From assembly GCF_020215665.1 (NCBI RefSeq), contig NZ_CP084061.1:5802501-5866500 (forward strand): a stretch of 64,000 nucleotides of DNA, read 5' to 3'. The notes under the pieces are model-generated. The model was not told the DNA's origin, searched no databases, and saw nothing but the letters and a program-made list of their open reading frames with translations. Shown piece after piece: positions 26,323 through 26,911 of the stretch. The translations under genes were made by a program, and so were the position numbers. Each line of letters begins with the position of its first letter. Within the stretch, counting starts at the first letter, position 1. The stretch is from Blautia parvula (GTDB lineage Bacteria; Bacillota; Clostridia; Lachnospirales; Lachnospiraceae).

Positions 26323-26460
26323 ATGCTCCCCGCCTTTCCAGGGGCGTGTTTGTAACCATTTTAACGATTTGCGCCCCGTACTAAATCATTCTGATAAAAA
26401 GCATAGCACAGAATATTGGGAGCAACAAGGAAAATATGTGGGTATATGGCTGAACCGGAC

Positions 26461-26638
26461 GTCATGGGGGCATGGGTATCTCTCACGCAGACACCCGCAA
26501 CGCTCAGTCAAGCTAACCGTTAACTGCAACTAAGAGCACTCGGGAGAGCCCTCGTGTCTAAGTTTCCGTAAACGGTGGATCTTGCCATCGCTAAAAGCGC
26601 GGGAATGTCTGCATGAGAGATACCCATGCCCCCATGAC
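26461..26638 (+). repeat. Structured 178-bp element, copy A
   Basis: Bounded by 33-nt arms (26461-26493 and 26606-26638) complementary at all but one position. Inside, CCCGC (26494-26498) can pair with GCGGG near 26599, ACCGTT (26516-26521) with AACGGT (26570-26575), and an apical hairpin is formed by CAC..GGG with CCC..GTG around an AGAG loop. Homology to copy B continues outside the arms (AACCGGAC before, TGT and TTGGA after). The outer arms differ in sequence from those of copy B but are again self-complementary. Confidence 0.8.
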
Positions 26639-26702
26639 TGTGCGTTGGAAGCGAGAATTTTAAAATATTATGTTTTTGAAATCTTCCGTTATCCAATATA
26701 CA

Positions 26703-26881
26703 GTCACCCGGGCCCTGGCATCTCTTACGCAAACATTTGCCCGCGTATTTAGGGAGGACGAGATCCACCGTTTACGGAAACTTAGGCGCGAGGGCTTTCC
26801 CGAGCGTCTTAGTTGCAGTTAACGGTTAGCTCGGCCGAGCGTTGCGGGTGTTTGCGTAAGAGATGCCAGGGGCCGGGTGAC
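26703..26881 (-). repeat. Structured 179-bp element, copy B (inverted)
   Basis: Homologue of copy A in reverse orientation, with 33-nt arms at 26703-26735 and 26849-26881 that again mismatch at only one position. Relative to copy A the arms carry several base changes that occur in both arms together (e.g. the GGGTATC part becomes TGGCATC with a matching change opposite). The apical stem changes CAC/GTG to CGC/GCG. The internal single-stranded parts, such as TTAACTGCAACTAAG, are nearly identical between copies. Confidence 0.8.
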
Positions 26882-26911
26882 GTCCGGTTAGGAAAAAACT
26901 TAAATATCCTC

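Follow-up and report, generated by a model that had tools for sequence, protein, structure and literature searches.

The window, by which is meant the whole stretch of 64,000 nucleotides of Blautia parvula DNA that was analysed, contains an inverted pair of long hairpins that belongs to a dispersed family of palindromic repeats in Lachnospiraceae. On balance, these repeats are probably non-autonomous mobile DNA palindromes that form inverted pairs like those of REPINs and are moved in trans, and the hairpin dimers are much larger than known REPs. This reading draws on the structure of the hairpins, the existence of the family, the lack of wobble tolerance in the stems, the orientation of pairs, and the absence of whole pairs from relatives at two loci. 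It would require an enzyme that transposes the pairs, with DNA as the acting molecule and presumably no transcription. The preliminary description had offered a structured RNA, a DNA hairpin substrate and a new MITE-like family as possibilities, and the last two are favoured here.

The hairpin pair of the window

Hairpin A lies at positions 26461 to 26638 on the forward strand, with an outer stem formed by 26461-26493 and 26606-26638, and hairpin B at positions 26703 to 26881 on the reverse strand, with an outer stem formed by 26703-26735 and 26849-26881; each outer stem encloses a conserved core. The outer arms are 33 nt long and 97% complementary in both copies, which align as inverted homologues over their full length (196 columns), as expected from the two inverted hairpins of ~178 bp with 33-bp outer stems that had been described. 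The core of A (26504-26588, forward strand; G000:5829004-5829088 in coordinates of the B. parvula genome, G000), represented by the 84-position model R1, is made up of P2, a CTA/GGAT mismatched loop, P3, an A-A mismatch, and an apical stem, and the core of B (26755-26838, reverse strand; G000:5829255-5829338) has a model score of 110.2 bits. The ACCGTT/AACGGT, CCCGC/GCGGG and apical helices that had been proposed are all present in the predicted fold of both copies, for which the fold energies of the two strands are predicted as -107 and -113 kcal/mol for A and -104 and -115 kcal/mol for B. Differences between the arms of A and B are mostly compensated, with 22 of the 33 outer pairs identical, 9 differing on both sides with pairing retained, and 2 differing on one side, in agreement with the earlier claim that each arm had changed to match the other.

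An unpaired GGAC tag stands at the foot of hairpin A (26457-26460, forward strand), where the first stem base extends it to GGACG, and the GGAC tag of hairpin B occupies the other outer end of the pair (26882-26885, reverse strand; GTCC on the forward strand). The spacer between the hairpins (26639-26702, 64 bp), if the C of each adjoining stem is counted in, has a CTGT..TTGG-like motif at both ends, and this motif is enriched 3' of other copies. The presumed insert comprises the entire pair (26435-26896, 462 bp, with ends placed to within a few bases), is wholly absent from the relative G009, and is flanked by 7-bp direct repeats, AGGAAAA, on the left (26428-26434) and on the right (26890-26896), which may be a target-site duplication. 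The bounds of the hairpins themselves are thus as first described, but the unit appears to be wider, because the GGAC tags lie outside the stems and a segment of about 26435-26896 is missing as one piece in a relative.

Anatomy and covariation

The model matched 103 times in 80 loci, and 93 copies remained after removal of 10 opposite-strand shadows. Of these, 70 could be anchored by a GGACG motif at the 5' and a CTG motif at the 3' foot; the search required both motifs, so that 70/93 is not an unbiased frequency of the tags. Anchored copies have hairpins of 173-271 nt between the tags, with outer stems of 23-55 bp in 65 of the 70, and these stems are 97.5% Watson-Crick (62 mismatches in 2446 pairs). 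The sequence of the outer stem varies between copies, and cores are in some cases nearly identical within a subfamily. When the first 25 stem bases are compared with those of the nearest other copy, identity is at least 80% in 17 of the 70 copies, 60-80% in 32, and less in 21.

In an alignment of 71 cores, 93.2% of cells are paired and two-sided variation occurs in 26 of the 27 pairs. Fitting of the alignment to the structure favours the covariation count, which stands at 507 two-sided cells versus 131 +/- 13 in shuffles (none of 500 reached it) and falls to 41-96 when the partners are slid; the covariation that had been noticed in two copies is therefore far above chance. The near constancy of the loops, also noticed then, is family-wide, with conservation of 94-100% for the unpaired CTA and GGAT, 96 and 87% for the A-A mismatch, and 81-90% for the TC/TC mismatch across the 71 cores. 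These conserved mismatches are kept defects within otherwise well-paired helices. The further claim that the covariation is the signature of selection for structure has to be divided, as the covariation is real but could arise without selection by copying from arm to arm; selection on the core is still called for, because the mismatched loops are conserved.

Immediately outside the tags, the two flanks are complementary to a degree beyond that of mismatched flanks (66 copies, p = 1.6e-7), a control that leaves local composition unmatched. The mobile-pair reading does not account for this complementarity. EFAR elements of Enterococcus faecalis are stem-loop miniature insertions of ~170 bp that target stem-loops, leaving complementary ends. 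The flanks of the hairpin family are comparable by this description, and their complementarity could reflect similar insertion at hairpins or a further stem.

Copies and distribution

The first additional copies in the B. parvula genome came from blastn. A covariance model built from 11 cores then located copies at 27 places, and one more in the fetched loci brings the total to at least 28; the model search returned 28 rows, one of them an opposite-strand shadow, and scored 150 of 1578 candidates, so that the figure is a lower bound. In a sample of Lachnospiraceae, 25 of 299 genomes have a match (the B. parvula genome counted), including one, G041/L069 (E 3e-4), whose fold looks doubtful. The covariance-model search that the preliminary description recommended thus did recover further copies in both settings. 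Within a sample of 20 genomes of the genus, matches occur in three, namely B. parvula, G008 (29 matches), and G009 (10 matches, with at least 2 extra copies found by alignment), and the model found none in the 17 others. A broader model, of 71 members, gave matches in six of the 392 order genomes sampled and in two of the 398 phylum genomes (B. parvula included), all of them Lachnospiraceae. No match was obtained outside this family in the two samples, where stricter filters applied and 9-10 candidates were scored per genome, such that weak or lone copies may escape. An exact pattern scan of named genomes gave at least 117 stretches. Among the matches listed, carriers include Blautia schinkii, Oliverpabstia intestinalis, and Candidatus Blautia equi, as well as metagenome-assembled genomes labelled Dorea, Roseburia, Eubacterium, Lachnotalea, Lachnospiraceae, Clostridiales, and once Clostridiaceae (all labels as deposited).

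Phage and plasmid collections gave no match to one blastn query each, nor did viral contigs to a single exact degenerate pattern. Rfam release 15 returned nothing credible for the element at the gathering threshold or at relaxed E-values, consistent with the earlier statement that no known RNA family could be recognised; weak matches to miRNA and other models fell below the threshold, and the only two matches above it were tRNAs outside the element. The portions available of the literature searched contain no report naming this hairpin family, and the available portion of one source on stem-loop families (PMC2267715) does not mention Lachnospiraceae.

Two further features of the B. parvula genome were recorded. 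Eight of 23 independent element positions fall inside 260 kb, at 3.02-3.28 Mb, a value equalled or exceeded in 11 of 20000 random draws. In the 3040433 region (L123), a 40-nt insert with a hairpin of its own sits inside P3 and is missing from the G008 orthologue.

Presence and absence of pairs in relatives

At the window locus, G009 retains both flanks and lacks the whole pair, and B. parvula has an additional 462 bp flanked by AGGAAAA. The empty site of G009 reads AAGAAAAAAC, not AGGAAAA, and confidence in the mobile-pair reading is slightly lower because this site is not an exact match to the 7-bp repeat, which is A-rich and seen at one locus only. The pair is also absent in G008, where the right flank cannot be aligned. 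At a second locus (447 kb), the pair is missing in both G008 and G009, where the sequence from the stop codon to the following promoter-like stretch differs from that of B. parvula. Comparison with these two genomes reveals no clear direct repeat, and G011 and G019 also have too little room for a pair. The two loci are most simply read as insertions of whole pairs. Joint deletion could alternatively account for the absence of both hairpins, though the lack of room in G011 and G019 speaks against it at the second locus. Among other loci compared, L115 versus L170 was rejected as an empty site, as one partner has instead decayed in B. parvula, G009 has one partner without the other at L128/L185, which counts against the mobile-pair reading, and the intergenic DNA at L135 is too diverged for an empty-site reading.

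Evolution of the stems

Orthologous copies are shared among B. parvula, G008 and G009. Ten comparisons of such copies were tried, from which two without found ends and L115/L170 were excluded; of the remaining seven, L115/L171 and L170/L171 represent one locus, so the comparisons are not fully independent. In total, 225 outer pairs are unchanged, 24 have changed on both sides and are paired, 7 have changed on one side (G-T gained or lost in 3, A-C gained or lost in 3, and 1 other), and 1 has changed on both sides and is unpaired. The two-sided changes include flips from C-G to G-C, and a 3-bp indel between G008 and G009 is matched in both arms. The arms of a stem behave nearly as a single evolving site.

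Template switching at hairpins copies one arm to the other, giving two-sided changes without a wobble intermediate, according to the available part of PMC8794818, where the process is inferred mainly for short stems of rRNA and microRNA; the hairpin family shares this pattern of change in the long stems of dispersed repeats. The complementarity of the arms may be kept by template switching and/or by strong selection against unpaired DNA hairpins, and it can be argued that selection acts on the core under either one, because the mismatches persist. An extreme version is that the copies are dead insertions held palindromic by neutral template-switch correction alone, free of any present selection, for which the near-unity of the two arms, the 3-bp indel found in both, and the mechanism itself (PMC8794818, as available) might be cited. 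This version is unlikely, as correction should erase the CTA/GGAT, A-A and TC/TC mismatches, which hold at 81-100% conservation in the 71 cores, drawn from many genomes. Long stems that are orthologous between species would allow the contribution of template-switch correction to be measured directly against that of compensatory selection.

Probable maintenance of pairing at the level of DNA

In the helices of RNA, G-U is expected to be far commoner than A-C. The 71 cores contain 1734 Watson-Crick, 28 G-T, 31 A-C, and 97 other cells, whereas a control with SRP RNA (30 loci, Lachnospiraceae) contains 734 Watson-Crick, 212 G-T, and 1 A-C. A first version of this control, in which a motif filter kept 14 of 30 loci, gave 93 G-T versus 2 A-C, and a stricter motif that kept 1 of 30 was discarded. 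The procedure used for SRP RNA, when applied to 30 of 60 usable cores, gave 635 Watson-Crick, 13 G-T and 11 A-C on the forward strand and 671 Watson-Crick, 27 G-T and 17 A-C on the reverse strand. In the outer stems, read on the forward strand, A-C cells (24) outnumber G-T cells (9). Pairing looks to be maintained at the DNA level, because tolerance of G-U is absent or weak, unlike in the SRP control.

Against this, in 67 of 70 copies the better RNA fold is that of the reverse strand, although the copies are not independent and much of the advantage stems from their shared core. Combined with the excess of A-C over G-T in outer stems read on the forward strand (24 versus 9) and with a G-T share that is larger on the reverse strand and still small, this advantage is a hint that the reverse strand is transcribed. 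Promoters reading into the element, scored with a self-written matrix, are not enriched relative to shuffles on either side; the sole excess (15 of 66 copies at >=9 bits) lies on the upstream side and reads away from the element, as expected for divergent genes. A multicopy structured non-coding RNA, or a 3'-UTR element under selection for RNA helices, would explain the massive covariation of the 71 cores, the better fold of the reverse strand, and the position of the element just behind co-oriented genes (58 of 92 cases, with a median of 38 bp from stop codon to 5' end), but it has a low probability in view of the near equality of G-T and A-C, the promoter counts, two-sided changes that proceed without wobble intermediates and include C-G to G-C flips, and the patchy distribution and whole-pair absences. 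The structured RNA suggested in the preliminary description accordingly finds little favour in the data, be it the 28 G-T versus 31 A-C cells (212 versus 1 in SRP RNA), the 24 two-sided versus 7 one-sided changes, or the lack of enriched promoters into the element. The family thus provides a natural counter-example to the equation of covariation with RNA, as it passes for a structured RNA by the usual counts and yet lacks wobble pairs.

Comparison with known elements

Integron attC sites have GTTRRRY / RYYYAAC ends and an integron integrase, and the ends of the hairpin family read GGACG..CTG. Close parallels are found with REPs and REPINs of the GTAG or CGTC type, which in the available parts of PMC3116915 and PMC3733652 are palindromes of 20-40 bp with a stem of 5-13 bp and an unpaired tag (GTAG or CGTC) at one of the ends, those of the GTAG type having a RAYT / Y1 transposase in the genome. 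Like REPINs as presented there, the hairpin family consists of tagged palindromes near the 3' ends of ORFs that form inverted doublets, with tags outside in 23 of 27 pairs of close neighbours. Unlike REPs, its members measure 173-271 nt, with 23-55 outer pairs in 65 of 70 copies, and carry a GGAC(G) tag; in distinction from GTAG REPs, the Y1 transposase is missing from G008 and G009, and stems vary between copies. CGTC REPs (PMC3733652, as available) share tagged palindromes, head-to-head dimers, the lack of a dedicated transposase and a location near ORF 3' ends, and differ in their stems of 8-9 bp, loops of 4-5 nt and CGTC tag, the GGAC tag of the hairpin family being placed 5' of the stem. 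Neither Firmicutes nor Clostridi is mentioned in the main text of that paper. Size, tag and transposase set the hairpin family apart from both GTAG and CGTC REPs, and it is for this reason regarded as a new variant of mobile palindromic repeats, which adds a large family to a major gut lineage.

Bacterial MITEs, in the available part of PMC3733652, are likewise short, non-coding and dispersed, with inverted ends comparable to those of the pair. In the hairpin family, however, the inverted ends are the hairpins themselves, and no parent insertion sequence was found by neighbour clustering and the PF01797 search. MITEs carry terminal inverted repeats and a target-site duplication and have a related autonomous insertion sequence; the ends of the pair are inverted, and a direct repeat of 7 bp is present at one locus, with none clear at another.

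Search for an enzyme and a possible mode of mobility

Clustering of neighbouring proteins at 55 and at 192 loci revealed none that recurs like a partner, which weighs against the mobile reading, and the clusters are small and apparently composed of common paralogues (ABC transporters and similar, as judged by eye). The genome-wide search for transposases covered one family, PF01797 (Y1 transposase), which has no member in G008 and G009 and one broken fragment in the B. parvula genome, and is present in 12 of 21 element-carrying genomes versus 11 of 19 element-free genomes. The Y1 transposase was ruled out as a partner by the absence of PF01797 from G008 and G009, and the mobilising enzyme is apparently not a Y1/HUH transposase.

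In the mode of mobility envisaged here, the unit would be an unpaired GGAC tag, a largely free outer stem, and a covarying core with strongly conserved mismatches, and two such units, inverted with tags outside, would enter intergenic DNA together as a single pair, in many cases immediately past a stop codon. The DNA would fold while single-stranded, during replication or transposition, and an enzyme supplied in trans would recognise the tag and the mismatched loops. The sequence of the outer stem would not be recognised, and the stems would therefore be free to drift, with the arms staying complementary through hairpin-primed template switching, which copies one onto the other, and/or through the loss of broken hairpins. 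It is possible, though distinctly more speculative, that the family represents a new class of mobile DNA, in which a fixed set of mismatches in an otherwise sequence-free hairpin serves as a recognition code, an enzyme other than Y1/HUH reads the folded DNA, and the stem of each copy is kept paired by arm-to-arm copying. Such an enzyme, if found, could be a recombinase that reads the shape of DNA.

Arrangement and genomic setting

Most copies are solitary, a point against the preferred reading. Among neighbours no more than 3.2 kb apart, with coordinates pooled from the own-genome, family, genus, order and named-genome searches and the fetched loci, 23 of 27 are convergent, 4 are direct (two belonging to the same tandem array), and none are divergent. 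The upstream gene is co-oriented in 58 of 92 cases, with the 5' end of the element a median of 38 bp past the stop codon and within 100 bp of it in 52 of the 58, and downstream genes are farther off; genes were called by a simple ORF rule, and the element end was approximated for 23 unanchored copies. Placement after genes would suit immobile hairpins that serve the host as DNA or as terminators, be it as a transcription barrier or as a nucleoid or replication site, and the retention of orthologous copies between species and the 8 of 23 independent positions within 260 kb also speak for this possibility. It is nonetheless improbable, given that matches occur in only 25 of 299 genomes of the family and in none of 17 further members of the genus, that whole pairs are absent in relatives, and that pairs are convergent even where the flanking genes diverge, as they do on either side of the pair in the window.

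Terminator-like sites near 66 copies exceed shuffled expectation upstream (16 versus 5.0 reading forward, 2 versus 0.7 reading in reverse) and downstream (9 versus 2.3 and 9 versus 1.0, respectively); adjoining terminators were rejected as a general rule, as these copies show an excess over shuffles only. At L302 (1560-2614), three near-identical tandem hairpins directly follow an apparent intrinsic terminator, in an array derived from a duplicated larger unit, and tandem repeats fill the spacers of two pairs (L128, 2614-3700, and L171). Other long hairpins occur within 1 kb of the element, 3' of it in 19 out of 70 copies and 5' of it in none of the 70. In four similar loci of G189 (L089-L092), a second, different long hairpin is located ~130-510 bp 3' of the element and has paired CTTAG motifs in a mismatched loop.
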